From Terriglobales bacterium (GTDB taxonomy: Bacteria; Acidobacteriota; Terriglobia; Terriglobales; Acidobacteriaceae), in the NCBI GenBank assembly GCA_035573675.1, contig DATMAB010000027.1, positions 248,001 through 312,000 of the forward strand: a DNA stretch of 64,000 bases, in the 5' to 3' direction. Every line of letters begins with the position of its first letter. Positions within the stretch are counted from its first letter, which is position 1. Below the pieces are notes generated by a model that saw only the letters and a program-made list of their open reading frames with translations, was not told the origin of the DNA and did no database searches. Both the position numbers and the translations under genes were made by a program. Positions 8,693 to 38,428 of the stretch are shown in pieces.

Positions 8693-9133
8693 CTAGGTGA
8701 TCTTGAAAGCCTTTCTCAATGGTGCAACCAGTTCGTCAGCGATCTCGTAAATCCAGGCGCCCGCAACGTCCTGATGACCGTCGTACCAATCCTTCGGCCC
8801 ACCTGCTGCTTTCATGTTTCGCGTGAGGGCCGAGCCGATTCCAGCGTAGTCGTGCTGCTTCTTCACACCGGAGATTCGGACGAGCTCGCTGAGCGGAATC
8901 TTCCCGCCCCTGCGGAGCCACTCTTCCATGACAGCTCGGAGCCGAGGCGTTCTGTAGACGAGGCCAGCAAACTTGGTCGCGATTCTCTCAACGGAGCTTG
9001 ATACTTGACTACCGAGCGTCGGCAACGAGATAGTGCCGGTCGGGGACCCGAAAGCGGCGACCATCCGCGACAGGGCCTGCATGATCTCCGGATCCGAACC
9101 ATCGTAGGCAAAGGTGAGTGTTAAGGTTGGCAT
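8693..9133 (-). CDS. Hypothetical protein, 146 residues
   Basis: I do not recognise this protein. It starts MPTLTLTFAYDGSDPEIMQAL. It has an alpha-helical middle (TPRLRAVMEEWLRRGGKIPLSELVRISGV) and a C-terminal half with WYDG and WIYEIADELV. No signal peptide or membrane segment is seen. The ATG at 9133 has AGGT on its strand about ten bases upstream, and the gene is preceded by an unusually AT-rich region with a palindrome. With the DUF4145 gene it forms a small accessory insertion between gyrB and the decarboxylase. Confidence 0.6.
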   Translation of the reverse strand: MPTLTLTFAYDGSDPEIMQALSRMVAAFGSPTGTISLPTLGSQVSSSVERIATKFAGLVYRTPRLRAVMEEWLRRGGKIPLSELVRISGVKKQHDYAGIGSALTRNMKAAGGPKDWYDGHQDVAGAWIYEIADELVAPLRKAFKIT

Positions 9134-9159
9134 AGGGTGCTACCTCCACTCAAATTGTA

Positions 9160-9176
9160 CACTAACTATTTTAGTG
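9160..9176. promoter_or_regulatory. Possible operator: CACTAA-N5-TTAGTG
   Basis: A perfect 6-bp inverted repeat with a 5-base spacer lies in an AT-rich stretch (9150-9225) upstream of the leftward hypothetical gene at 9133 and the rightward decarboxylase gene at 9304. TATAAT-like hexamers occur just to the right (cATATAATAg). It could be a regulator site or part of the promoter. Confidence 0.35.
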
Positions 9177-9303
9177 AGTGCATATAATAGATTAATAATA
9201 TGTTATTTGTATAACGCTGATGGCTGCTGGCCGCCGGTAAGGGGTAGTTTGGCTCAGCCCTCTCAAGGGGTTCCGCGCGGTATGTAGACTGCGAAATGCG
9301 AAC

Positions 9304-10659
9304 ATGGACAAGGAAACACTTCGCATCCTTCACGATGCCCTCGCCCGCTTGGACGCAGGCTTCGCCGAACTGCCCGCGTTAGAGACGGCCATTCCCGGGC
9401 GTGAGCGCATGGAAGAAGTCTTGGCCGCTACCGCCGACCGCCTGCACGACAACTTTCCTTACTTTCATCCGCTCTATGCCGGGCAGATGCTGAAGCCGCC
9501 GCATCCGGTGGCTCGGCTGGCCTACGCTCTGGCCATGTGGATCAATCCCAACAACCACGCCCTCGATGGCGGCCGCGCCAGCTCCGCCATGGAGAAGGAA
9601 GCCGTGGCCGAGATCGCCGCCATGTATGGATGGAAGACCTTCCTCGGGCATCTCTGCGGCGGCGGGACCATGGCGAATCTCGAAGCGCTGTGGGTGGCGG
9701 GACAGTTGCATCCCGGCAAGACGATTTTGGCTTCCGAGCAGGCGCACTACACGCATGGGAGGATCTCCAGCGTCCTGCAGCTCAAGTTCGAGAACGTCGC
9801 CTGCGATACGCTGGGGCGCATGGATGTGGGCGCACTGGAGAAGCGGCTGGCGCGCGGCGACATCGGCGCCGTCGTGGTCACCATGGGCACCACGCCCACG
9901 GGCGCGGTCGATCCGCTTCCTGCGATTCTCGCGCTGCGCGAAAAGCACGGCTTCCGCGTGCATGCCGACGCCGCCTATGGCGGCTACTTCACGCTGGCCG
10001 CGAACCTCGACGCGCCCGCGCGCCAGGCCTTTGAGCGCATCGGCGAGTGCGACTCCATCGTGGTCGATCCCCACAAGCACGGCCTGCAACCTTACGGCTG
10101 CGGCTGCGTGCTGTTCCGCGAGCCGGACGTCGTCCGCTTCTACAAGCACGAGTCGGGCGTTACCTACTTCAGCTCGGCGGAGCTGCACCTGGGCGAGATC
10201 AGCCTGGAGTGCTCGCGTCCGGGCGCTTCGGCCGTGGCGCTGTGGGCCACGCAGCGCCTGCTGCCGCTCGTCAAAGGCGGCGAGTTTGCCGCCGGCCTCG
10301 GCCGCTGCCGCCAGGCCGCGCTCGCGCTCCATCGCAAGCTAAAGGCTGACGCGGGCTGGATCGCCGCCTTCGAGCCCGAGCTGGATATCGTCATCTATGC
10401 CCCGCGCGCCGCGAGCGCGTCCGCCATCTCCCGCCTTTCGCACTGGACGTTCGACGAGGCCGCTCGCCGTGACCTCCACTTGGCTAAGGCGGAAGTGCCC
10501 GCGAAGTTCTTCCAGTCCTCGGCGCCCGAGGTGAAGTGGGACCGCGAGAGCGTCACCTGCCTGCGCTCCGTGCTGATGAAGCCCGAGCATCTCGACTGGC
10601 TCGACCGCATCTGGGAGATCCTCTCCGCGACGGCGGCGGCGCGCCCGGCGGAGCCGTAG
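9304..10659 (+). CDS. PLP-dependent group II decarboxylase family protein
   Basis: This 451-residue fold-type I PLP enzyme belongs to the glutamate/aromatic-amino-acid decarboxylase group. The N-terminal half has GRASSAMEKEAVAEIAAMYGW and the CGGGTMANLEALWVA segment that binds the PLP phosphate. HADAAYGGY holds the Asp that contacts the pyridine nitrogen. K258 in DPHKHGLQPYGCG is the Schiff-base lysine. The substrate cannot be read from sequence. The gene ends four bases before a methyltransferase gene, so the two are probably one operon. Confidence 0.85.
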   Translation: MDKETLRILHDALARLDAGFAELPALETAIPGRERMEEVLAATADRLHDNFPYFHPLYAGQMLKPPHPVARLAYALAMWINPNNHALDGGRASSAMEKEAVAEIAAMYGWKTFLGHLCGGGTMANLEALWVAGQLHPGKTILASEQAHYTHGRISSVLQLKFENVACDTLGRMDVGALEKRLARGDIGAVVVTMGTTPTGAVDPLPAILALREKHGFRVHADAAYGGYFTLAANLDAPARQAFERIGECDSIVVDPHKHGLQPYGCGCVLFREPDVVRFYKHESGVTYFSSAELHLGEISLECSRPGASAVALWATQRLLPLVKGGEFAAGLGRCRQAALALHRKLKADAGWIAAFEPELDIVIYAPRAASASAISRLSHWTFDEAARRDLHLAKAEVPAKFFQSSAPEVKWDRESVTCLRSVLMKPEHLDWLDRIWEILSATAAARPAEP

Positions 10660-10663
10660 ACGC

Positions 10664-11473
10664 ATGTCCGGCGACGAAGTCCGCGGCTGTCCGTTGTGCG
10701 GGCGCGACAATTCCGCCTGCCCGCGCTTGTCTTACGCCGCGCATCCCTGGGTGCTGCGCGAATGTGCCGGCTGCGGCCTGGTGTATCTGGAGAACCCGCC
10801 CCCCTACGAAGCTCTGGAAGCGGACCTCGCCTGGGAGAAGACCTGGGCCGCCGAACATGAACGCCGCTTGTCCGAGGAGCCGGTGTTCGGCCGCGTCGCG
10901 CAAGCCATCAACTGGATGCGCGCACACGTCCTACACCGCGACAAGCTCTCCGAGCTCATCCTGCGCTACGTGGCGCCCGGTCCCGTGCTCGACGTCGGCT
11001 GCGCCGATGGCCGTGCTCTCGACCGCTTGCCTGCCGGTTACATTCCCTTCGGCATCGAGGTCTCGCGCGAGCTGCACGCGCTGGCCGACGCCCGCTTCTC
11101 CCGCCGCGGCGGACGCGCCCTCCGCGCCGACGCCCTCTCCGGCATGCAGCAACTCAGTCATGCCTTCTTCGAAGGCATCGTCATGTGCTCGTTCCTGGAG
11201 CACGAGCGCCAGCCGCGCCAGGCGCTCGAGCGCGCCGCTCTGCTGCTCAAGCCCGGCGCGCGCCTCATCCTGAAAGTCCCCAACTTCGCCTGCTGGAACC
11301 GTGCCGTGCGTGGCGCGCGCTGGTGCGGTTTCCGCTCCCCGGACCACGTGAACTATTTCACGCCCAGGCTGCTCGCGCGCCTGGTCAGCGACTGCGGCCT
11401 GAAAGTGCGCCGCTTCGGCCCTTTCGACCGCTTCCCCACCAGCGACAACATGTGGCTGGTGGCGGAAAAGTGA
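10664..11473 (+). CDS. Class I SAM-dependent methyltransferase with N-terminal zinc ribbon
   Basis: This 269-residue protein starts with CPLCGRDN and, about 25 residues later, CAGCGLVYLENPPP, a zinc-ribbon pattern common in sugar and lipid C-methyltransferase-like enzymes. The SAM site is VLDVGCADGRALDRL. A later VMCSFLEHERQPRQALERAALLLKPGARLILKVPN is the usual motif II/III of the Methyltransf_23 group. The substrate is unknown. It lies four bases downstream of the decarboxylase stop. Confidence 0.85.
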   Translation: MSGDEVRGCPLCGRDNSACPRLSYAAHPWVLRECAGCGLVYLENPPPYEALEADLAWEKTWAAEHERRLSEEPVFGRVAQAINWMRAHVLHRDKLSELILRYVAPGPVLDVGCADGRALDRLPAGYIPFGIEVSRELHALADARFSRRGGRALRADALSGMQQLSHAFFEGIVMCSFLEHERQPRQALERAALLLKPGARLILKVPNFACWNRAVRGARWCGFRSPDHVNYFTPRLLARLVSDCGLKVRRFGPFDRFPTSDNMWLVAEK

Positions 11474-25462: not shown

Positions 25463-27025
25463 TCAGTGCGCCGCTTCGTGTCCGAGGGCGTCGAGCCCGG
25501 TGGACTTGAGAATCTCCGAGAGCTTGGGGTAGTTGATTTTGGGTGACCGGGGCACAATCAAGTAGTCCTCCGCCGGCGTTCCCAGAGCAATGAAGTCATC
25601 CGCCAGATAGAACAGCCCTACCAGCGCGGAGGTGATGGCGTCGACCTCGTCGTGACTGATCTTCTCCGTCAGGAACGACCCTTCAATACCCGCGCGGTGC
25701 AGACCCCATTTCAGCTCTTCCAGACTGGCGCCCTTCCTGGGGATGCCCAGCAGGTCCTGAGCGGCGCCTGGGTAGCTTTCAATCACGGTCAGGCCGGCCT
25801 CGCGCAATCTCTGCGCCAGACGCATCCCACGCGTCGTAAGGCCCTTCATCGTGGGCAGGAGACACCAGAAAACTGAGATGCCCATGCGCTTGAGGGCCAG
25901 CTCGCATTTCCGGTAAATCGGCGAGTCTCCGAGTTTATCCGGATCGACCACGCCTTCTGGGAAGGAGAGGGGCGAGTCGATAGAGACAAGGTCCGGCTTG
26001 GATTCGACGGTTGCCTTGACCAACTCATCATCCGTATGGAGCGGCCGGGTTGACACTGCTGCGCCTACCATAAGGGCCCATCCAGTTGCTCGCTTCGCGC
26101 TCCCCGTGAGGTCAATTCCGACAATCCGAGGACTAGCGGTGGCCGTTTTTCGCAGCAGTCCAGACACGAGGTTTGATTCAGCAGGCGGGGGGACAATCGC
26201 GCGAGTGGCGGTTGACTTGCGCGCACGGGGAAGCTCGGCCACGCCAGTGAAAACGGGCGCAATGGAGTGGTTAAGGAAAGTGGCAGTGTGCCGGGAGAGC
26301 TTGTCGTAAGCAATCTCGACGATTGCCTTCAAGTGCACGACGTCTTCGGTGTTGTACTGGATGAGCCGCTCCAGCGCAGACTGGTCGCCCCGCTGGTATC
26401 GGGCCCAGAGGACTGTGGCGTCGAAGCCGGACAGTTCCTCGACTTCTGCTGCGCGACGGATCCTTAGACGTTTTTCTACTTCCTTCAAGCCCCCTGTGTA
26501 CCCAAGCCGGCGCATGACCCAACGCAGGTCGATGTGGACGGGCGGAATCGCCATGTCTGGGAAGGCGAGCCTGAGGAAGCGAAGATCGAAACCGGAGCCG
26601 TTGAATGTGACCACCACAGAGTGCTTCTGAAGCTCTTTGGGAAGGTCGTCGAGGTTCTGGCCTTCCACGAACACTTTGTACTTGCGGCCATCGTATAGGC
26701 CCACAAGGGTGACACTGTCGAAAACCGTCGACATCCCCGTAGTTTCAATATCGAGATAGACACACTCGTCTGCGAACTCAGGAAACACCCGCCACGCCTC
26801 GCCTAGAGCTGTGAGGCGCTCGAAGAAACCGGCGTCCTTGCGACGAACAGCCTCCCAGGACTGAGGGATGTATTGGTCGAGCTTCTCCTGCAGGCGGGCG
26901 CCGACGAAACCAAAGCGCTTCTCGAAGCGGTCAGCGTCCTCCCAGGAGCGGATGCCGTGGCTCCAGAGGTCGCGCTCAGTGTGCTTGCCGATGCCCGGGA
27001 TGTGGATGAACGTCTGCCGGAGCAT
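25463..27025 (-). CDS. DEDD-type exonuclease (YprB-like) fused to a DUF429 RNase H-fold domain
   Basis: This 520-residue protein begins with a helix-hairpin-helix-like segment (FIHIPGIGKHTERDLWSHGI). A YprB-type RNase H-like exonuclease domain spans about residues 80-245, with acidic residues D92 and E94 (DIETTG), D147 (GFDLRF), D166 and D228, plus Y224 in YNTED (the DEDDy pattern). After a linker, residues about 300-500 match DUF429: VGIDLTGSAKRATGW, VSIDSPLSFPEGV, VIESYPGAAQDLLG and SHDEVDAITSA. It is the first gene of the leftward operon, with AAGGTGA before the ATG. It is probably a DNA- or RNA-degrading component. Confidence 0.75.
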   Translation of the reverse strand: MLRQTFIHIPGIGKHTERDLWSHGIRSWEDADRFEKRFGFVGARLQEKLDQYIPQSWEAVRRKDAGFFERLTALGEAWRVFPEFADECVYLDIETTGMSTVFDSVTLVGLYDGRKYKVFVEGQNLDDLPKELQKHSVVVTFNGSGFDLRFLRLAFPDMAIPPVHIDLRWVMRRLGYTGGLKEVEKRLRIRRAAEVEELSGFDATVLWARYQRGDQSALERLIQYNTEDVVHLKAIVEIAYDKLSRHTATFLNHSIAPVFTGVAELPRARKSTATRAIVPPPAESNLVSGLLRKTATASPRIVGIDLTGSAKRATGWALMVGAAVSTRPLHTDDELVKATVESKPDLVSIDSPLSFPEGVVDPDKLGDSPIYRKCELALKRMGISVFWCLLPTMKGLTTRGMRLAQRLREAGLTVIESYPGAAQDLLGIPRKGASLEELKWGLHRAGIEGSFLTEKISHDEVDAITSALVGLFYLADDFIALGTPAEDYLIVPRSPKINYPKLSEILKSTGLDALGHEAAH

Positions 27026-27127: not shown

Positions 27128-27523
27128 GTGAAACGTGGAAGAATCCTGTCGCCCGGGGAAAGGCTCTTGAGGCAGCGAGTGTCAAGAGAGTTTCGAGAGA
27201 TAAAGACAGCCAAAGGCGCGAAGGCAGCGGCAGACGAGCTTGGCGTTTGCCTGGCCTCGTTCTACAAGTATGTGAGGGGTGACGATCTGCCTCGGTTCGA
27301 CGTTCTTAGGCGAGCTCATGAAATGTGGAACATCAACTTCGATCACATCGACTTCGAGGAGATTTTTCGGAAGTACAGAGGGGCGCAAGGCATTCGGGAG
27401 GAGAAGCAGTACGTTCTTCCGTTCATCGAAAACGTCCGCCAACAGGACGTCACGATTCTGCATGTAGCAGCCAGGCGGCCGAATGCGCTCGAACTCCGAG
27501 TAAGAATCAGATTTGCAAGCTAG
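27128..27523 (+). CDS. HTH (XRE-like) regulator of the divergent nucleotide operon
   Basis: This 131-residue protein has a helix-turn-helix at about residues 20-60 (FREIKTAKGAKAAADELGVCLASFYKYVRGDDLPRFDVLRRAHEMW), which resembles Cro/CI-type repressors. The rest (ENVRQQDVTILHVAARRPNALELRVRIRF) may sense a ligand or form dimers. The GTG at 27128 is chosen because GGAGG lies six bases upstream; a GTG at 27110 is the longer option. It is divergent from the four-gene operon, with a palindromic operator between them, so autoregulation and operon control are likely. Its stop overlaps the next, convergent gene. Confidence 0.7.
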   Translation: MKRGRILSPGERLLRQRVSREFREIKTAKGAKAAADELGVCLASFYKYVRGDDLPRFDVLRRAHEMWNINFDHIDFEEIFRKYRGAQGIREEKQYVLPFIENVRQQDVTILHVAARRPNALELRVRIRFAS

Positions 27524-28035
27524 GTCGACCCGTCGGGCGATGTCGCTGCCGGCGGCAGCCACGACTTCTTGTAGCGTTCCGGATGGGCAATCCCCTTGCC
27601 CTGAGATTCACGCTTCGCCCCCAACAGATGCCAGGCTTCCCGGTAGCGTTCGGTGCGGCTGGAACTCTTGGGCACGTGGGGGAAGAGCTTGACTTCGTTG
27701 GTGGGAAGGGTGTGGGCGGGGATGATGTACCAGGCGTCGTAGGGGACAACCCAGGCGGCGAGGAAGTCGATGTCGTCAGGGGTGAACGACCGCGTATCGC
27801 CCTGGAGGCGGCAGCCGATGCGGAAACAGCGTGAGTTGGGAACGTTGGTGGAGCGGACCTGGACGCGCACCAGTCGCTTGCGGCGGCGGTTTGGGCCGCG
27901 GTCCACGATGGCGTCGTAGGCGCAACTATCGCCGAAGGGCTGGGAGACGGCCAGGCCACGGGAGAGCGCCTGGAAGAGGAAGGCGCATTCGGCGCGCTCG
28001 CCGACGAGTTTGGGGTTGCGGGAGGGACGGGACAT
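27520..28035 (-). CDS. PD-(D/E)XK nuclease-like protein, copy 1
   Basis: This 171-residue protein resembles the PDDEXK_5 type (intron-endonuclease-like). E13/E16 lie in KLVGERAE, D41 in AYDAIVD, and Q59-V-R61 in RVQVRST; the usual K of the (D/E)XK or QXK motif is Arg here. Residues 9-45 are identical to the gene at 34709. The C-terminus (WHLLGAKRESQGKGIAHPERYKKSW) is shared with a broken copy at 34471-34690. The stop codon overlaps that of the regulator. Whether it still cuts DNA is uncertain because of the Lys-to-Arg change. Confidence 0.6.
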   Translation of the reverse strand: MSRPSRNPKLVGERAECAFLFQALSRGLAVSQPFGDSCAYDAIVDRGPNRRRKRLVRVQVRSTNVPNSRCFRIGCRLQGDTRSFTPDDIDFLAAWVVPYDAWYIIPAHTLPTNEVKLFPHVPKSSSRTERYREAWHLLGAKRESQGKGIAHPERYKKSWLPPAATSPDGST

Positions 28036-29675: not shown

Positions 29676-31976
29676 ATGGCTCGTGAAGGGCCCAGCTACA
29701 ACTTCGACCGTTTCACCGTAGATACGGCCGAGCGCACCCTGCGCTGCAACGGCGACGTCCTGGCTGTGCCTCCCAAGGTCTTTGACACGCTGGCGGTGCT
29801 GGTGGAGAACGCCGGGCGGGTGGTGGAAAAGGAAGAACTGCTCCAGCGGGTGTGGCCGGACACCTTCGTGGAAGAGGGCAACCTCGCGCAGAACATCTTC
29901 ACGATACGGCGGCTGTTGGGAGACGACCGGAACGGGCACCGCTACATCGAGACCGTGCCCAAGCGCGGGTATCGCTTCGTAGCGGAGGTGCGGCCCGCTA
30001 TCGCAAGTGGGACCAGGCAGAGGGCTGAGGCCGCACGTACGTTTCCTCGCACCCGCCGGCGGTGGCTGGTCGCAGGGGCCGCGCTCGCCGTTTTCGCACT
30101 GGCGGCGGGCGCTTTGCTCTGGCAGTCGTGGCCACCGGCGCTCGACTTTCCCAATCGCGGCTGGGTGCTGATAGCCAAGTTCGAGAACCGGACGGGCGAG
30201 GCGATCTTCGATGACACGGTGGAGTACGCCCTGGAGCGCGAGCTGAGCAACTCACGCTTGGTCAACGTGCTGCCTCCGCCCCGAGTGCAGGACATCCTGG
30301 CGCTGATGCGCCGGGCGCCCGATACGCGCCTAGATACAGAAATGGCGCGCGATGTTGCCCTGCGCGACGGCGAGGTTCCGGTGGTGATTACAGGGCGCGT
30401 GGACAAACTGGGAAACCGCTACCAGCTCAATGTGGCACTCGTGGAAGCGGCCACGGGAGTCACCCTGGCGGCGTTGGCGGAAGAGGCGGCCAATCAGGAG
30501 GCCGTCCTGGATGCCACCCGTACACTGGCCCGGCGCGTCCGTGAGGAGTTGGGCGAACAACTGCCACAAGTCTCGGCACCGACGCGACTGGAAAAGGCGA
30601 CTACGCCTTCGTTACGCGCACTTCAGTTCTTCTCGCAGGGAATGCGCCTGGTGGACCTGCGAAAATGGAACGCCGCCATCCCGCTTCTCGAGCAGGCGCT
30701 GACCGAGGACGCAGACTTCGCCTCGGCCCACATTTATCTGGCCCATTGCTATTCGAACGTGCGGAAGGACAAAGAGGCAGCGCCACACTATCAAGAGGCT
30801 TTTCGGCTGGCTAAGACCACCAGCGACCGAGAGCGCTACTTCATTGTGGGGAGCTACTACGACCGGTTCGTCGCGGATCACGGCAAGGCCCTTGAGGCGT
30901 ATGAAGTACTGGTCCGCCTCTATCCGGACGATTTCTGGGGCGTGAACAACCTGGCGAACAAATACTGGTACCTGGGTAGACTCGACGAAGCCCTTCCCTA
31001 CTCTCTGCGGAGGGCCGATCTCCGCCCGCATGACTTAGCAAGTGTCTTTGGAGCTTGGGATTCGCTGAGGCGCTCCGGCCGAGACCCTGCCCGGGCCGAG
31101 GCCTTGTTCCACAAGGCTCAAGTACTCAGTCGGAACCCGGACGCGTTCCCCAATCCCCAGCTGTGGGTTCGCGTGAGGGTCGCCGGTGCCCGGCACCGGG
31201 CAGGCCTCGGGGACTACCGCGGTGCACTGCAGGAGCTGGAAGGGCTTCGGCGCAGCCTTCCCTCCTATACAGGTCCTCGCCGAGAAGCGCTGACCGACTG
31301 GCTGGCCGCCCAGTTTGTCCATCTCGGGCAATTGCGCGCCGCGGAGGAACTTTACTCCGCACTCCAGGATGAGTCCGACAGACATGTAGGGCTGGCGTGG
31401 GTGGCAGAGGAACGAGGCGATATGACCGCTCTGCGCTTCCATCTCCGTCGTCGATTTGCTCTCGGAAGCGTTGGCATCGACCCAGAGATCGTCCGGCAAG
31501 CGGTGCTAGCCGGATTGCTGGCCGAGGCTACCGCACAGACTCCCGACGAGCGCATGCAGAACTTGTGGGCGCCGCGGTATGTACGGCTGCAACGTGCCCA
31601 CATCGCGACCGCCCAAGGGAAGAGTTCGGAGGCCATCCATCTATTTACCGAGCTTCACCAGGACGCAACGGCCAACCGGAATGATATTGCTCTAGCGGTT
31701 GGGGTCGCGTTGGCTGGCGCACTGGAGCGGCGCGGGGAGCCGGCTGCCGCGGCGGAGGTTATCAGCCGGGCCCTCGCCGCCGATTCCTGGCCGGAGCGCG
31801 TGGCAGAAGTGCGGCAGGCGAAATTCGAGCTCGCACGCATCTATCGCAAGCTGGGGCGCGAGGCGGAGGCGAGCGCGCTGGAAGCCGAGATACGGCAATC
31901 GCTGGCGGTCGCCGAGGCCGACCATTCCATGCTGCTGGCGCTGGAGCGAAACCGGCAGATACGGGCTGCGCGGTAG
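29676..31976 (+). CDS. CadC-like winged-helix/TPR membrane regulator, tandem copy 1
   Basis: This 766-residue protein starts with an OmpR/PhoB-type winged helix (residues about 5-105: YNFDRFTVDTAERTLRCNGDVLAVPPKVFDTLAVLVENAGRVVEKEELLQRVWPDTFVEEGNLAQNIFTIRRLLGDD). A single membrane helix lies at about 128-148, then a TolB/FlgO-like domain (RGWVLIAKFENRTGEAIFDDTVEYALERELSNS), and then about 400 residues of TPR-like helices. This is the layout of one-component membrane-bound regulators of the CadC/ToxR kind. It shares nearly identical ends with the gene at 32097. The signal sensed is unknown. Confidence 0.85.
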   Translation: MAREGPSYNFDRFTVDTAERTLRCNGDVLAVPPKVFDTLAVLVENAGRVVEKEELLQRVWPDTFVEEGNLAQNIFTIRRLLGDDRNGHRYIETVPKRGYRFVAEVRPAIASGTRQRAEAARTFPRTRRRWLVAGAALAVFALAAGALLWQSWPPALDFPNRGWVLIAKFENRTGEAIFDDTVEYALERELSNSRLVNVLPPPRVQDILALMRRAPDTRLDTEMARDVALRDGEVPVVITGRVDKLGNRYQLNVALVEAATGVTLAALAEEAANQEAVLDATRTLARRVREELGEQLPQVSAPTRLEKATTPSLRALQFFSQGMRLVDLRKWNAAIPLLEQALTEDADFASAHIYLAHCYSNVRKDKEAAPHYQEAFRLAKTTSDRERYFIVGSYYDRFVADHGKALEAYEVLVRLYPDDFWGVNNLANKYWYLGRLDEALPYSLRRADLRPHDLASVFGAWDSLRRSGRDPARAEALFHKAQVLSRNPDAFPNPQLWVRVRVAGARHRAGLGDYRGALQELEGLRRSLPSYTGPRREALTDWLAAQFVHLGQLRAAEELYSALQDESDRHVGLAWVAEERGDMTALRFHLRRRFALGSVGIDPEIVRQAVLAGLLAEATAQTPDERMQNLWAPRYVRLQRAHIATAQGKSSEAIHLFTELHQDATANRNDIALAVGVALAGALERRGEPAAAAEVISRALAADSWPERVAEVRQAKFELARIYRKLGREAEASALEAEIRQSLAVAEADHSMLLALERNRQIRAAR

Positions 31977-32096: not shown

Positions 32097-34394
32097 GTGG
32101 CTCGCGAGGGACCCAGCTACAACTTCGACCGTTTCACCGTAGATACGGCCGAGCGCACCCTGCGCTGCAACGGCGACGTCCTGGCTGTGCCTCCCAAAGT
32201 CTTTGACACGCTGGCGGTGCTGGTGGAGAACGCCGGGCGGGTGGTGGAAAAGGAAGAACTGCTCCAGCGGGTGTGGCCGGACACGTTCGTGGAAGAGGGC
32301 AACCTCGCGCAGAACATCTTCACGATACGGCGTGTTCTGGGAGACGACCGGAACGGGCACCGCTACATCGAGACCGTGCCCAAGCGCGGGTATCGTTTCG
32401 TGGCGGAGGTGCGGCCCGCTACCGCAAGTGGGACCAGGCAGGCGGCGGAGGGCGCACGTACGTTCCCTGGCACCCGCCGGCGATGGCTGGTCGCAGGGGC
32501 CGCGCTCGCCATTGTGGCCCTTGCGGCTGGGGTGTACACCTGGCGCTCACGCCCTCCGGCGCTCGACTTTCCCAATCGCGGCTGGGTGCTGATAGCCAAG
32601 TTCGAGAACCGCACGGGCGAGGCGATTTTCGATGACACGGTGGAGTACGCCCTGGAGCGCGAGCTGAGCAACTCGCGATTCGTGAACCTGGTGCCGCCGG
32701 AGCGAGTTCAGGACGCGTTCCGGCTGATGAAGAAGGCGTCCGACACGCGCCTGGACGCTCCGCTCGCGCGCGAGGTGGCGGTGCGCGACAGCAACGTCCA
32801 GATGGTGCTGACCGGCCGCACCGAAAAGCTGGGCGCCAGCTACGCGCTCAGCGCATCTCTGGTCCAACCCTCCAGCGGGGCCGTGCTCCGGTCGTTCCGC
32901 GAGGAGGCCGCGGACCTCAATGCCGTGCTGGCCGCTGTGAACCGGCTGTCCCGCCGAGTGCGGGAAAGCCTGGGCGAAGAAGCCGCACAATTCCGACAGA
33001 ACACGCCGGCACTGGAAAAGGCAACGACGCCTTCCCTGCGCGCCCTGCAGCTGTATTCGCGAGGCATGGCCCTTCTGAACCAGAGAGAATGCAACGCCGC
33101 CGCCCAGCTCTTCGAGCAGGCGCTGGCCGAGGACGCTGACTTCGCCTCGGCCCACATCTATCTGGCCCATTGCTACTCGAACGTGGGAAAGGACAAGGAG
33201 GCAGCGCCCCATTATCAAGAGGCTCTCCGGCTGGCCGAGACCACCACAGACCGTGAGCGGTATTTCATCGTGGGCAGTTACCACGACCGATTCACGCAGG
33301 ACTACGAAAAGGCGATCCAGGCGTATGAAGTCCTGGTGCGGGAGTATCCGGACCACTACTGGGGTGTGAACAACCTGGCGTTGACATACTCGTACCTGGG
33401 CAGGCTGGAGGAAGCCGTTCCCTATTTTGTTCGCCGGGCCGAGCTTCGTCCCCACGACTTGTGGAGCGTGTACTGGGCCTACTATGAGGTACGGCGTTCC
33501 GGGCGGGCTCCTGCCAAGGCTGAGGCACTGCTGCGCAAGGCGCAAATGCTGAGTCAGAGCCCAGACGCTTCGCCGCCCGACTATTGGGCAGCCATCACCC
33601 TGCACGGCGCGCGGCGCCGGATGCGGCTTGGAGACTACCAAGGAGCGCTCCAGGAGATGGAGCGCGTCCGAAGGGACTTTCCCTCCTACACAGCTCCTCG
33701 GCGTGAGGCACTGACCAAGCATCTAGCCATCTATTTTCTCTATCTGGGCCGGATGCGTGCCGCAAATGAGCAGTACGCGACGCTCCAGGACGAAGCTGAG
33801 AAACATGGGGGTCTGGCGTGGCTGGCGGAGGAACGAGGGGACATGAGGGCGGTGCGCTTCCATCTGCGCCGCCAACTGGCCCTGGGAGCCGATGGCAGTG
33901 ACCCCTTCACACTGCTGCAATTGGTACGGGCCGGGCTGCTGGCCGAGGCTGCCGCGCGGCTGCCCGACGATCGGATACGGGAATATCCGCCTCGCTTCAT
34001 TCGCCTGGCGCGTGCTCACATCGCGATCGGCCAGGGCAGGATTCTGGAGGCCCTGGATTTGCTCACCAAACTTCACGGCTCCATGACGGCCAACCGGGAC
34101 GTATTTGCCTGCACGGCCGCCATCCCGCTGGCTGAGATCCTGGAGCGACGCGGGGACCTGGCGGGTGCGGCCAACGTTCTCAGCCAGGCGCTCGAAGCCA
34201 ATCAGGCCCCTGTGATCGTGACAGATTTCCGGAAGGCGAAGTTGCAGCTAGCGCGCCTCTATCGCAAGCTGGGGCGCGAGGCGGAGGCGAGCGCGCTGGA
34301 AGCCGAGATCCGGCAATCCCTGGCGGTCGCCGATGCCGACCATCCCATGCTGCTGGCGCTGGAGCGTGACCAGCAGATACGGGCTGCGCGGTAG
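32097..34394 (+). CDS. CadC-like winged-helix/TPR membrane regulator, tandem copy 2
   Basis: This 765-residue paralogue of the preceding gene starts with GTG. The winged helix is almost identical to that of copy 1, and the membrane helix and the start of the TolB-like domain are also close. The region after about residue 195 and the TPR part differ clearly. The last about 45 residues (YRKLGREAEASALEAEIRQSLAVADADHPMLLALERDQQIRAAR) are again nearly identical. DNA recognition is therefore probably shared, while the sensing part has diverged. The gap between the copies is 120 bases. Confidence 0.85.
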   Translation: MAREGPSYNFDRFTVDTAERTLRCNGDVLAVPPKVFDTLAVLVENAGRVVEKEELLQRVWPDTFVEEGNLAQNIFTIRRVLGDDRNGHRYIETVPKRGYRFVAEVRPATASGTRQAAEGARTFPGTRRRWLVAGAALAIVALAAGVYTWRSRPPALDFPNRGWVLIAKFENRTGEAIFDDTVEYALERELSNSRFVNLVPPERVQDAFRLMKKASDTRLDAPLAREVAVRDSNVQMVLTGRTEKLGASYALSASLVQPSSGAVLRSFREEAADLNAVLAAVNRLSRRVRESLGEEAAQFRQNTPALEKATTPSLRALQLYSRGMALLNQRECNAAAQLFEQALAEDADFASAHIYLAHCYSNVGKDKEAAPHYQEALRLAETTTDRERYFIVGSYHDRFTQDYEKAIQAYEVLVREYPDHYWGVNNLALTYSYLGRLEEAVPYFVRRAELRPHDLWSVYWAYYEVRRSGRAPAKAEALLRKAQMLSQSPDASPPDYWAAITLHGARRRMRLGDYQGALQEMERVRRDFPSYTAPRREALTKHLAIYFLYLGRMRAANEQYATLQDEAEKHGGLAWLAEERGDMRAVRFHLRRQLALGADGSDPFTLLQLVRAGLLAEAAARLPDDRIREYPPRFIRLARAHIAIGQGRILEALDLLTKLHGSMTANRDVFACTAAIPLAEILERRGDLAGAANVLSQALEANQAPVIVTDFRKAKLQLARLYRKLGREAEASALEAEIRQSLAVADADHPMLLALERDQQIRAAR

Positions 34395-34708: not shown

Positions 34709-35140
34709 TCAGCCTTCAGCCGTCAGCAAGTGCCAGGCCTCCTTGTACTTTTCCCAGCGGCCTCGGCTCTTCTCAACATGCGGCCAGAACACTAGGGATC
34801 CGCAATCCAGGATTCTGGCCGGAATCAGGTACCAAGTGTTTCGGGGCACGATCCACACGGCAAGCAACTCAATGTCGGCCTCTGTGTAGTTCTCCTGCTT
34901 GTTCCGGCCATGGGAAGCGCTCACTTGAAAGCCACGATGTGTGCCGTAGTGCATCCTTGTCGACCGGACCTGGACGCGGAAGAGGCGCTTGCCGTTATCC
35001 ACGATAGCGTCGTAGGCGCAGCTATCGCCGAAGGGCTGGGAGACGGCGAGGCCGCGGGAGAGCGCCTGGAAGAGGAAGGCGCATTCGGCGCGCTCGCCGA
35101 CGAGTTTGGGGTTGCGGACGGGGCGGGAGGGACGGGACAT
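34709..35140 (-). CDS. PD-(D/E)XK nuclease-like protein, copy 2
   Basis: This 143-residue protein has the same N-terminal domain as the gene at 27520: RNPKLVGERAECAFLFQALSRGLAVSQPFGDSCAYDAIVD, then FRVQVRST with Arg instead of the catalytic Lys. The middle differs (YTEADIELLAVWIVPRNTWYLIPARIL) but has the same pattern of Trp/Tyr residues. It lacks the last about 30 residues of copy 1. The upstream leader is also duplicated. The two copies and the remnant flank the winged-helix/TPR pair. Confidence 0.6.
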   Translation of the reverse strand: MSRPSRPVRNPKLVGERAECAFLFQALSRGLAVSQPFGDSCAYDAIVDNGKRLFRVQVRSTRMHYGTHRGFQVSASHGRNKQENYTEADIELLAVWIVPRNTWYLIPARILDCGSLVFWPHVEKSRGRWEKYKEAWHLLTAEG

Positions 35141-35475
35141 GGGTGGCTCGCTTTCTGCTTGAAAACCAGCGGCCAGTGGGTATTGGCTGGTTCGAGCTTA
35201 GGAGTGCCGAGGTGCGAGGCGGCGTGCTGCGGAGGCTGCGGGTCGGATTGGATTCTTGCGGCTATTTCATCAGAGACAAGAATAGCATGTATGGGAGGCG
35301 AATGTAAAGCGAAAAAGCAGCGGGCAGCCAGCGGCTGGCAGGCGGCAGGGAAGGCATTTTCGCGGCGGATTCACGTGGATAAACGCGGATCGCAGAAGCA
35401 GCTGGCAGGCGGCAGGACATGCAAATCCACCACGGAGACACGGAGGCACGGTTCGGCTGCGCTCAGGGCAGATTG
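35141..35475. repeat. Duplicated leader and dispersed repeats
   Basis: Bases about 35148-35335 duplicate the leader of PD-(D/E)XK copy 1. They are followed by 'cggattcacgtggataaacgcggat', 'ggcaggcggcaggacatgc', 'caccacggagacacggaggcacgg' and 'ttcggctgcgctcagggcag'. No gene is seen. Confidence 0.7.
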
Positions 35476-37590
35476 CTATTTCGCCAGCGTTTCTTCCACC
35501 ACGTGCTTGCCGCCCTTTTCCACGGTGACGAGCTTCTTGACGGGCTGGTAGCCTTCGCGGCTGACGACGATCTCGTACGTCCCGGGGTTGAGGTAGAAGT
35601 CGACGGGCGTGTTCTTGCCCAGGGCCTGGCCGTTGACGGTGACCTGGGCGCCCTTGGGATTGGTGCGCACGGTGACGCGTCCGGAATTTTCCGGCTTGCC
35701 GCCGAAGATGCCGCCGAAGCGGCCGGCGACCTTGATGTTCTCGGTGCTGCCGGTGAGCTTGAGGGTGGGCGCGAACTGGGCCGATTGTCCGGGCGAAAGC
35801 TGCATGGTCTCAGAGGCGTCGTGGTAGCCCTGTTTGCGCACGGTGACGGTGTGGCTGCCCTTGGCCACGATGAGCTGCGCGGGCGTGACCTTGCCGGTGG
35901 CTGTGCCGTCGAGCAGGATGGCGGCGCCAGCCGGGTCGCTGGAGACCGAGACGGTGGCGGCCAGTTCGGTGAGGCCTACAGCCACGGAGGCCTTCTGCCC
36001 GGCGGCTACCTCGATGGTGCGGGTGACGGCGGTGTGGCCGGCCTTGCTGATGGTGATGGTGTGGGAGCCGGCATCGAGCGAGGCGGTGTGCGGCGTGACT
36101 CCGGCAGGCCTGCCGTCAATCAGGATTTCGGCGCCGGGCGGATTGGAATCAATCGAGACGTCACCGGTCACGATGACCGGTGCGGCGGGCGCGGGCGGCG
36201 GCTGCTTGGCCTTGGCTTTGCCGGCGGCGGGACGCGGCTCGGCCGTGGCCGGTTCCGGTTCGGGAGCGGGCGTGGCCGGCTCCGGCTTGGCCAGCGAAGC
36301 CGCGGCAGGAGCAGGTGCGGCGGCTGCGGCCGGCTGCTCCGCAGCGGGTTTGCGCAGGAGCACGGCGGCGAGAATGGCGACCACGACCAGCGCGCCGATA
36401 GCGCCGCCCATGATGTAAATGAGCCTGTTGTTCGGCCCGGCTTGGGGCGCGGGCGCTGTAGGCGCAGCCGCAGCTTTGGCGGTGACAATCTGCGGAGCAG
36501 GCTTAGGCGCGGCGGGTGGCCGCTCGGGTTTGGGCGCAGCCGCGGCGGGCGGAGGCGGTGTGGCCGGCTTTGCTGGCGGGGGCGCAGCAGAGGCCTCGGG
36601 CTTCGCCGCTTTGGCCGGTGCTCCTGCGGCCGGCACCGGCGGCGCGTACATGACGACGGTTTCGCGGGGCGGCTCGGCCGGTGCGGGCGCCGCGGGCTTG
36701 GGTCGTGGTTCGGCAGGGAGTGCCGCGGCGGACGCAGGTTTCGGCGCCGGTTCCGCAGGCTTGGCTTCAGGAGGCTTGGCGGCCTGGGGCGCGGTCTGGA
36801 GCTGGCGGTAGTTTTCGAGGTCGCGAACCAGATCGGCGCCGGAGGCATAGCGGTCCGCGGGCGCCTTGGCCAGCGCCTTCATCACAATCCAACTGATGTT
36901 GGGATGGACGTCCTTGTCCACTTCGTGGGGCGCGGGCGGATTTTCTTCGATGATCTTGCGACGGACCTCTTCGGCAGTGTCGCCGGGGAAGGCCTTCCAC
37001 CCGGTGAGCATCTGGTAGAGGATGGCGCCCCAACTGAAAAGATTGGAGCGGGCGGTGAGGGGCTCGCCGCGGGCCTCCTCTGGCGAGACGTAGTAGAGCG
37101 CCTCAGTGAGTTCGCTGCCCGAGTGGCGGCGGGGAAAGCCGAAGTCCATGATCTTGGCGGTGCCGTCCCACTCCAGCACGATGTTGCCGGGGCGCAGCTC
37201 GGGATGGATGACGCCCTTGGAGTGCGCGTGGTCGAGCCCGGAGCAGACCTGCCGGCTGAGATCGGTGACCTCGGACCAGGTGAGCGGCTCGCCCTTTTCG
37301 AGCGACTTCGAGAGCTTGACGCCCTCGACGAATTCCAGGGCGACATAGAACAGGCCGCTGGCTTCGCCGCCGCCCAGGACGCTGGCGATGTTGGGGCTGT
37401 CCAGCGCGCTGGCGGCGCGGGCGGCGGCGCGGAAGGCTTCCGCGCCTTCCTGCGCGGCGGGCGCATCCACGCGCATGGTGCGCAAAGCGACCGTGCGGCC
37501 CTTGAGGTCGGCCGCCTTGTAGACTGAGCCGCCTTCCCAAGTGGCTAGCTCCGCCAGGATGGCGAACGGCCCGATGCGGTCATGTGCCAT
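35476..37590 (-). CDS. Membrane pseudokinase (Ser/Thr kinase fold) with three PEGA domains
   Basis: This 704-residue protein has a kinase fold at residues about 5-265, but key residues are changed. The VAIK Lys is Arg37 (VALRTM). HRDxK is HPELR, with Glu131 for the catalytic Asp and Arg133 for Lys. The F-helix Asp is Asn in ARSNLFSWG. N136 and DFG (149-151) remain. A Pro/Ala-rich linker, one membrane helix (LIYIMGGAIGALVVVAILAAVLL), another Pro/Ala stretch and three PEGA domains follow (VSIDSNPPGAEILIDG.., VSVSSDPAGAAILLDG.., VTVRTNPKGAQVTVNG..). It is probably inactive as a kinase and may be a cell-surface scaffold. Confidence 0.8.
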   Translation of the reverse strand: MAHDRIGPFAILAELATWEGGSVYKAADLKGRTVALRTMRVDAPAAQEGAEAFRAAARAASALDSPNIASVLGGGEASGLFYVALEFVEGVKLSKSLEKGEPLTWSEVTDLSRQVCSGLDHAHSKGVIHPELRPGNIVLEWDGTAKIMDFGFPRRHSGSELTEALYYVSPEEARGEPLTARSNLFSWGAILYQMLTGWKAFPGDTAEEVRRKIIEENPPAPHEVDKDVHPNISWIVMKALAKAPADRYASGADLVRDLENYRQLQTAPQAAKPPEAKPAEPAPKPASAAALPAEPRPKPAAPAPAEPPRETVVMYAPPVPAAGAPAKAAKPEASAAPPPAKPATPPPPAAAAPKPERPPAAPKPAPQIVTAKAAAAPTAPAPQAGPNNRLIYIMGGAIGALVVVAILAAVLLRKPAAEQPAAAAAPAPAAASLAKPEPATPAPEPEPATAEPRPAAGKAKAKQPPPAPAAPVIVTGDVSIDSNPPGAEILIDGRPAGVTPHTASLDAGSHTITISKAGHTAVTRTIEVAAGQKASVAVGLTELAATVSVSSDPAGAAILLDGTATGKVTPAQLIVAKGSHTVTVRKQGYHDASETMQLSPGQSAQFAPTLKLTGSTENIKVAGRFGGIFGGKPENSGRVTVRTNPKGAQVTVNGQALGKNTPVDFYLNPGTYEIVVSREGYQPVKKLVTVEKGGKHVVEETLAK

Positions 37591-37867: not shown

Positions 37868-38428
37868 ATGGTTCCTTTGACGGAGTTGTGGCTGCCGATC
37901 GTGCTCTCGGCGGTGATTGTGTTCATCGCCAGTTCGATCATTCACATGGTGCTGCTCATCCACAAGAGTGACTACAAGCGACTGCCGAACGAGGAGAAGC
38001 TGCTCGAGGCCATGCGCAGCGAGACTCTGCCGACGGGCTTGTACCACTTTCCGCATGCCGCCAGCATGAAGGAATGCGGCTCGCCGGAGATGGTGGAGAA
38101 GTTCAAGAAGGGGCCCGTGGGCCTGCTCACCGTCATGCCTTCGGGCGCGCCGACGATGGGAAAGTTCCTGGGCTTGTGGTTCGTCTATTGCCTGTTGGTG
38201 GGATTCTTCACCGCCTACCTGGCAGGACGGACGCTGGCTCCGGGCACGCACTACCTGGCGGTGTTCCGGGTGGCGGGCACGGCGGCGTTCATGAGCTACG
38301 GCCTGGCCAGCTTCGTCGATTCGGTGTGGAAGGGGCAGCCCTGGAGCAACACCATCAAGCACATGATCGACGGGCTCATCTACGGGCTGCTCACCGCAGG
38401 GACGTTCGGCTGGCTGTGGCCGAGGTAA
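37868..38428 (+). CDS. Conserved membrane protein of unknown function
   Basis: This 186-residue protein has an N-terminal membrane helix (TELWLPIVLSAVIVFIASSIIHMVLLI), a soluble segment (HKSDYKRLPNEEKLLEAMRSETLPTGLYHFPHAASMKECGSPEMVEKFKKGPVGLLTVMP) and then three more helices, ending IYGLLTAGTFGWLWPR. This layout recurs in hypothetical membrane proteins of soil bacteria. Function is unknown. The ATG is preceded by GGAGGAGGGCGGGAAG. The 277-base gap to the divergent pseudokinase gene should contain both promoters. Confidence 0.65.
   Translation: MVPLTELWLPIVLSAVIVFIASSIIHMVLLIHKSDYKRLPNEEKLLEAMRSETLPTGLYHFPHAASMKECGSPEMVEKFKKGPVGLLTVMPSGAPTMGKFLGLWFVYCLLVGFFTAYLAGRTLAPGTHYLAVFRVAGTAAFMSYGLASFVDSVWKGQPWSNTIKHMIDGLIYGLLTAGTFGWLWPR

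Follow-up and report, generated by a model that had tools for sequence, protein, structure and literature searches.

Sequence comparison assigns a degenerate PEGA receptor kinase of Terriglobales to an early branch of a pseudokinase clade

The window, the whole stretch of 64,000 nucleotides of Terriglobales DNA analysed here, carries on its minus strand the gene of a protein, P0001, in which a kinase-fold domain, a membrane helix and three PEGA domains follow one another. The features of this gene and of its divergent neighbour are given below in window coordinates, with the basis of each in brackets.

35476..37590, minus strand: PEGA receptor pseudokinase gene P0001, 704 amino acids (ATG start, open reading frame)
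36796..37590, minus strand: kinase-fold domain, residues 1-265 (Pfam Pkinase 20-248; AlphaFold model)
37528..37545, minus strand: degenerate Gly-rich loop ATWEGG, residues 16-21 (alignment to HRD kinases)
37498..37503, minus strand: residues 30-31, corresponding to PknB Leu33, with P0001 shorter by one residue (alignment)
37480..37482, minus strand: Arg37 replacing the VAIK lysine (alignment)
37423..37425, minus strand: Ala56 replacing the alphaC glutamate (alignment)
37372..37374, minus strand: Gly73, the place of PknB Asp76 on the dimer surface (alignment)
37183..37206, minus strand: catalytic loop HPELRPGN, residues 129-136, with Asn136 kept (alignment)
37138..37146, minus strand: DFG kept, residues 149-151 (alignment)
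37042..37044, minus strand: Asn183 replacing the F-helix aspartate (alignment)
36421..36795, minus strand: Ala/Pro-rich cytoplasmic linker, residues 266-390 (sequence)
36352..36420, minus strand: membrane helix, about residues 391-413 (hydropathy peak 393-411)
35968..36165, minus strand: PEGA domain 1 (Pfam; genome coordinates converted)
35758..35955, minus strand: PEGA domain 2 (Pfam; genome coordinates converted)
35689..35763, minus strand: clade-specific linker between PEGA 2 and PEGA 3, residues 610-634, with GSTENIK (clade sequence pattern)
35479..35682, minus strand: PEGA domain 3, conserved in the clade (Pfam; genome coordinates converted)
37868..38428, plus strand: small membrane protein of unknown family, divergent neighbour (start inferred from the copy in genome G025)

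The divergent neighbour has no Pfam match and adjoins the pseudokinase gene in the congener G025 too, and on the flank towards rplU and obg the gene order is common to both genomes, the window having some additional genes. An open frame of 702 amino acids lies antisense to the pseudokinase gene (35419-37527, plus strand), and similar antisense frames are found at relatives; it most likely results from GC-rich codons and is not a gene. Two tandem genes on the plus strand (29676-31976 and 32097-34394) encode proteins of 766 and 765 amino acids with nearly identical starts, the second of them with an OmpR-type DNA-binding domain and TPRs according to Pfam, and this pair is a recent tandem duplication. 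Related small proteins encoded on the minus strand flank the pair (27520-28035 and 34709-35140, the second matching the PDDEXK_5 nuclease) and may indicate that this segment is mobile or rearranged. At 25463-27025 on the minus strand one chain combines an RNase_H_2 domain with a weak DUF429 match below the cut-off.

The kinase domain of P0001 was recognized by Pfam Pkinase (PF00069) with 102.6 bits against a cut-off of 31.7, and the PEGA part as three stretches with 167.4 bits for the protein. A single strong hydrophobic stretch was found, with its hydropathy peak at residues 393-411, and the linker at 266-390 evolves fast, with 63% identity to the G025 protein. Pfam and hydropathy agree with the intact layout of kinase, membrane helix and three PEGA domains described in the initial annotation. 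Its term "secreted-surface pseudokinase" had to be given up, since prediction puts the kinase-fold domain in the cytoplasm and leaves the PEGA part alone outside. The AlphaFold model of the kinase part has a pLDDT of 92.3 and aligns best in the PDB with Stk1, PknB and PknA (Z 31.4-30.5, rmsd 2.1-2.4 over 248-263 residues for the first seven matches); as modelled, the kinase fold of P0001 is intact. Neither MviN nor EssB appears in the 50 matches listed, which excludes nothing. For the PEGA part a model with a pLDDT of 90.5 and a pTM of 0.63 was obtained, which resembles carboxypeptidase TTR-like domains (Z 9.0-9.7 over 67-68 residues) as well as other small beta-sandwiches in the PDB and gives no hint of a ligand; a profile search of solved structures with this part yielded no match at E 0.01.

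Alignment to HRD kinases showed which catalytic residues P0001 has lost. The VAIK lysine is Arg37, the alphaC glutamate is Ala56, and HRDxK reads H129 P130 E131 L132 R133, the arginine, aspartate and lysine of the motif being replaced by Pro130, Glu131 and Arg133, respectively. The F-helix aspartate is Asn183, and the first two glycines of the Gly-rich loop are lost (A16 T W18 E G G21), while Asn136, the DFG at 149-151 and the SPE at 169-171 are retained. The residue set of an active Ser/Thr kinase is broken at Arg37, Ala56 and Glu131, and by its sequence P0001 classifies as a pseudokinase. For ATP sensing, a role considered in the initial annotation, P0001 would have Asn136 and Asp149 left, the lysine, the alphaC glutamate and two glycines being gone. 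All four losses named in the initial annotation (Arg37, Glu131, Arg133, and Asn183) are present in the alignment, as are the DFG and the loop asparagine it had reported as remaining; its list was incomplete in that Ala56, the two loop glycines and Pro130 had been missed.

Between P0001 and the G025 copy dN/dS, by the Nei-Gojobori method, amounts to 0.11 in the kinase domain, 0.12 in the PEGA part and 0.16 over the whole gene, and the corresponding values against the more distant G080 copy are 0.38, 0.49 and 0.45. The 22 positions compared carry identical amino acids in P0001 and G025. These comparisons indicate that the window's pseudokinase gene is under purifying selection, and decay of the gene was ruled out by the dN/dS of 0.11-0.16 together with the identity of the altered residues in G025. 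In genome G003 the pseudokinase gene (L056:8288-10393, minus strand) is interrupted by an in-frame TAA and is being lost, and in G076 it is in pieces, so that the gene is dispensable in places.

The initial annotation treated a single protein; judged from sequence, P0001 is an early-branching member of a whole clade of PEGA pseudokinases found in one Terriglobales family (Acidobacteriota). A survey of relatives, as that annotation had proposed, showed the HRD aspartate to be absent clade-wide: none of 82 distinct pseudokinase sequences has it, versus 15 of 15 active PEGA paralogues, which keep all catalytic residues read (Lys, Glu, HRD Asp, Asn, DFG Asp). Two loci with no readable motif (L056 and L168) were left out of the residue, dimer-surface and neighbour counts and are included in the 100 reading frames used for the linker below. 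The lineage names of the clade loci, for the best 80 of 126, are Terriglobales, Terriglobia and Acidobacteria; these loci were chosen by two peptide patterns, and the share of any subgroup in them is not its prevalence. Searches of the class (399 genomes, E 1e-90) and of the phylum (396 genomes, E 1e-80) returned three and four matches outside the family, respectively, all of them HRD kinases, and at these cut-offs no score like those of the large subgroup described next was met outside the family; early-branching pseudokinases score no more than about 290-330 bits per half with the profile, and cases of this type outside the family could be missed.

The ATP site appears to have been dismantled along two opposite routes. 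The large subgroup, termed SLEP after its loop HxSLEP(A/S)K, comprises 74 of the 82 distinct pseudokinases. Lysine and alphaC glutamate are each kept in 73 of the 74, the loop asparagine is kept in none and the DFG aspartate in two. Among the eight non-SLEP pseudokinases the asparagine is kept in all and the DFG aspartate in seven, the lysine in three and the glutamate in four. Read from sequence, SLEP proteins retain the Lys-Glu pair and are, for the most part, without the metal ligands, and the window's line is the reverse, with asparagine and DFG present and lysine and glutamate lost. P0001 lies outside the SLEP subgroup, with its loop HPELRPGN and with no juxtamembrane motif of the SLEP type; two further early-branching pseudokinases have the loops HHFLNPSN and HHALHPDN (G050 and G032), both with the clade linker. 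New residues have become fixed in the SLEP subgroup (Glu133, Lys136, Trp141, and Ser153, each shared by all or almost all of the 74), and 68 of the 74 and none of the eight non-SLEP members carry the juxtamembrane motif SFSExxELPPLKE. This motif often follows VDPMM, and it sits in an otherwise variable cytoplasmic linker (for example L112:8995-11565). It is likely a docking site, and together with the fixed residues it suggests new binding functions.

The sequence of P0001 is compatible with weak or unusual activity, as Glu131 and Arg37 are conservative replacements and Asn136 and DFG remain. Such residual or altered catalysis, with ATP and metal held by Asn136 and Asp149 and a slow phosphorylation or another transfer as outcome, finds a parallel in the DYD pseudokinases, which have arginine for the lysine, lack the alphaC glutamate and were modelled with ATP (PMC12599244). 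It is nevertheless very improbable, given that the lysine, the alphaC glutamate, the catalytic aspartate, its lysine and two glycines are all changed together in P0001 and that the HRD aspartate is gone from the rest of the clade too.

A single origin of the clade pseudokinases is supported by two trees and a sequence pattern. A tree of the last 330 residues, which excludes the kinase domain, separated 33 pseudokinase from 15 active rows with 100/99 and joined P0001 with G025, G080 and G060, again with 100/99; one pseudokinase row there has no kinase part, one is interrupted, and the bootstrap values were not yet fully stable. The kinase-domain tree placed all 27 HRD rows, among them non-PEGA kinases, on one side of a branch with 100/98, a result for which the long branches call for caution. 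The pattern of the linker between PEGA 2 and PEGA 3 was found in 100 of 100 pseudokinase reading frames and in none of 15 active ones; it was written after the sequences had been seen, and the 100 frames include duplicates of a locus fetched twice. In genome G018 two active PEGA kinases stand in tandem (L058:7172-8935 and 9011-11245, minus strand), possibly a picture of how the duplication began.

Active kinases were also sought in the genome of P0001, which has 3.16 Mb, is 99% complete and contains 22 Pkinase matches. Twenty of these keep the lysine, the alphaC glutamate, the HRD aspartate, the asparagine, the DFG/DWG aspartate and the F-helix aspartate; the remaining two are a 107 amino acid N-lobe fragment (L022) and the degenerate P0001. 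The fragment (C27:322271-322540) just precedes an intact kinase gene at the place of L015. P0001 is the only PEGA-bearing kinase found, as the other two PEGA places of the genome lie in frames of 257 and 1223 amino acids away from Pkinase matches; comparison of PEGA and Pkinase matches thus revealed no active PEGA kinase in this genome. In G025 the active-kinase profile gave one match, the pseudokinase itself, and, at the threshold used, no active PEGA kinase. A partner kinase encoded close by was considered and rejected: among the reading frames listed around P0001 none is a kinase, and the nearest Pkinase matches on the contig (243528-244298 and 315981-316742) are outside the window.

In 100 genomes sampled in the family, a SLEP-clade pseudokinase was present in 30, another pseudokinase in 11 and an active PEGA kinase in 19. 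The tally was compiled by reading loci; the 30 include G005 (motif HKRLHPAN) and four genomes whose loci were read in part or in pieces (G009, G057, G073, and G076), and G074 was omitted. The active PEGA kinase accompanied none of the 30 SLEP-clade pseudokinases versus eight of the 11 others (Fisher p 0.0006, kinship ignored), where absence means that no match covering PEGA columns reached E 1e-100, in a sample that includes incomplete genomes.

Residues at the pairing surface were compared as well. Arg10 of PknB has a role at the dimer surface. Titles of PknB structures and passages of PMC8541300 show that the L33D and D76A variants served in studies of dimerization. In the alignment Asp76 corresponds to Gly73 of P0001 and Leu33 stands next to Gly31, so that the places of Arg10, Leu33 and Asp76 are taken by Pro8, a shortened loop and Gly73, a combination different from the PknB-type set. 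All 15 active PEGA kinases, and none of the 82 pseudokinases, combine arginine, a hydrophobic residue and aspartate at these places; singly, the pseudokinases keep the arginine in 44, the hydrophobic residue in two and the aspartate in no case. As a control served the 20 intact kinases of the same genome: all 20 have a hydrophobic residue at the Leu33 place and only 10 an aspartate at the Asp76 place, the alignment of L016 being loose in this region. A missing aspartate alone is therefore weak evidence, and it is the Leu33 place which carries the weight of the argument.

These findings bear on the explanation that P0001 pairs in the membrane with an active Hanks kinase whose activity it tunes; the active PEGA paralogue would be the ancestral partner, and the partner here would be one of the 20 other kinases. 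Mixed receptors are conceivable, as the PEGA parts are homologous, and an active PEGA kinase is present in the eight of 11 genomes with a non-SLEP pseudokinase mentioned above. Such a role is still unlikely: the absence of the complete three-residue set from all 82 pseudokinases argues against pairing of the PknB type, and the active PEGA kinase is absent from the genome of P0001 and, at the threshold used, from 30 of 30 SLEP-clade genomes.

The gene neighbourhoods differ between the branches. Divergent from SLEP genes there is an ABC operon encoding MacB_PCD/FtsX permeases, an adaptor of the HlyD/RND type and an ATPase, identified with Pfam on one example of each gene. Of the 45 distinct SLEP loci whose upstream flank covers 7 kb or more, 35 have this operon and ten lack it; it occurs at none of 12 active loci and at one of six non-SLEP pseudokinase loci. 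At L118 and L120 the nearest permease-like frame begins about 500 bases from the pseudokinase start, and at L114 and L152 other genes lie between the two. A stand-alone gene for a cNMP-binding protein directly follows the SLEP gene at 12 of 57 loci (for example L092:8128-8592, minus strand). A gene combining FHA, GAF and adenylate/guanylate cyclase domains follows the active PEGA kinase at eight of 15 loci (for example L083:11012-12646, plus strand) and the SLEP gene at none of 57. Active kinase and cyclase could possibly form a pathway from kinase to cyclic nucleotide, and the cNMP-binding gene at SLEP loci along with the cyclase at active kinases hints at cyclic-nucleotide signalling around both branches. 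Among the neighbours of the window's gene neither the exporter operon nor the cNMP-binding gene nor the FHA-GAF-cyclase gene was found. The proposal that this gene works with a MacB-type ABC exporter was rejected, as no such operon is present at the locus. Compared with the genome of P0001, the permease had no close relative (best E 1.3e-9); ten of 11 matches begin at residue 239 or later, and one spans residues 10-385 (1.5e-7). From the FHA-GAF-cyclase only the cyclase part was well matched there, apart from a weak match of residues 16-329 (E 1.1e-9).

The distribution of the operon, present at most SLEP loci and at no active one, would fit a role in regulating or assembling an export machine, SLEP proteins serving a MacB-type exporter and P0001 another transporter; EssB, described in PMC12599244 as a membrane pseudokinase of a secretion system, offers a precedent. 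With no operon at the window's gene, only one at the six non-SLEP loci, and weak permease matches in its own genome, this assignment is decidedly unlikely, and neighbourhood is not interaction.

The preferred reading is that P0001 is probably, if by no means securely, a noncatalytic single-pass membrane receptor which signals by protein contact and is possibly gated by nucleotide. Layout, residue losses, common ancestry and purifying selection are what the sequence shows directly. Signalling by contact is favoured because the HRD aspartate is lost clade-wide, the gene is under purifying selection, the predicted fold is intact, and single origin and linker are shared; the residues and juxtamembrane motif fixed in SLEP proteins, the loss of the dimer surface and the analogy with MviN and EssB would point the same way. 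A PEGA receptor Ser/Thr kinase would have been duplicated within one Terriglobales family, and the copy would have lost the catalytic aspartate and the PknB-type dimer-surface residues before taking the two routes, one keeping Lys-Glu without the metal ligands, the other Asn136 and Asp149 without Lys-Glu. P0001 would then be unable to transfer phosphate in the usual way. Its PEGA part may read a signal outside, which kinase-fold domain and linker may pass on by protein contacts, the kinase-fold domain acting as a scaffold or docking platform and possibly being phosphorylated by one of the 20 intact kinases. In the window's line binding of a metal-nucleotide could serve as a switch. The interpretation in the initial annotation of a pseudokinase by sequence with a likely noncatalytic role thus stands with its layout, and its surface placement does not; of the active kinase partner it proposed to look for, no PEGA-bearing candidate was found in the genome.

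A wider proposal joins these elements: duplication of a PEGA receptor kinase in one Terriglobales family yielded a purely contact-signalling receptor in which catalysis and pairing surface were lost together, SLEP proteins, as sensors of a MacB-type exporter, persisted beyond their active sister, and the window's line remained a metal-nucleotide switch. This combination is speculative and, taken as a whole, rather doubtful. If true, two opposite dismantlings of one ATP site would coexist in one orthologous receptor family. The clade forms a natural series, from the active sister through early pseudokinases keeping the metal site to a large derived group in which a new motif has become fixed and an operon is a candidate partner, and it makes testable whether a receptor can signal via a kinase fold when neither phosphate transfer nor pairing of the PknB type takes place.

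A literature search by title and start of abstract found no paper on a PEGA pseudokinase clade, and 'PEGA' and 'serine threonine protein kinase' were not met together. PMC12599244 reviews seven bacterial pseudokinase families and describes bacterial pseudokinases as predicted in large number, few of them with a function; its main text does not contain the stems Acidobacteri and PEGA, and the 2025 atlas of 42 families it cites (reference 72) may already hold sequences of the clade.

Closest to P0001 are the active PEGA receptor Ser/Thr kinases of the same family (HRD(V/I)KPAN), which share the layout of kinase, membrane helix and PEGA and are the sister group in both trees; unlike the clade, all 15 have the catalytic and dimer-surface residues, and they lack the clade linker between PEGA 2 and PEGA 3. 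Receptor kinases of the PknB/Stk1 type resemble P0001 in kinase fold and single-pass layout but carry PASTA instead of PEGA outside, and PknB retains its catalytic residues; the NCBIfam PASTA-kinase model matches only residues 22-288 of P0001. The DYD pseudokinases share with P0001 the arginine at the beta3 lysine, the missing alphaC glutamate, the loop asparagine and membrane association, but they belong to actinobacteria and firmicutes and have the DYD motif (PMC12599244), whereas P0001 keeps DFG, has glutamate for the HRD aspartate and has its relatives in Acidobacteriota. The MviN pseudokinase (ActPs3) and EssB/YukC are, according to PMC12599244, membrane proteins with a cytoplasmic pseudokinase domain which acts by binding, MviN and EssB doing so by recruitment; they differ from P0001 in lineage and domain make-up, and ActPs3 has large deletions and has lost DFG. 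The family described here appears to be new, and it is of a kind, the noncatalytic pseudokinase, that is already known.
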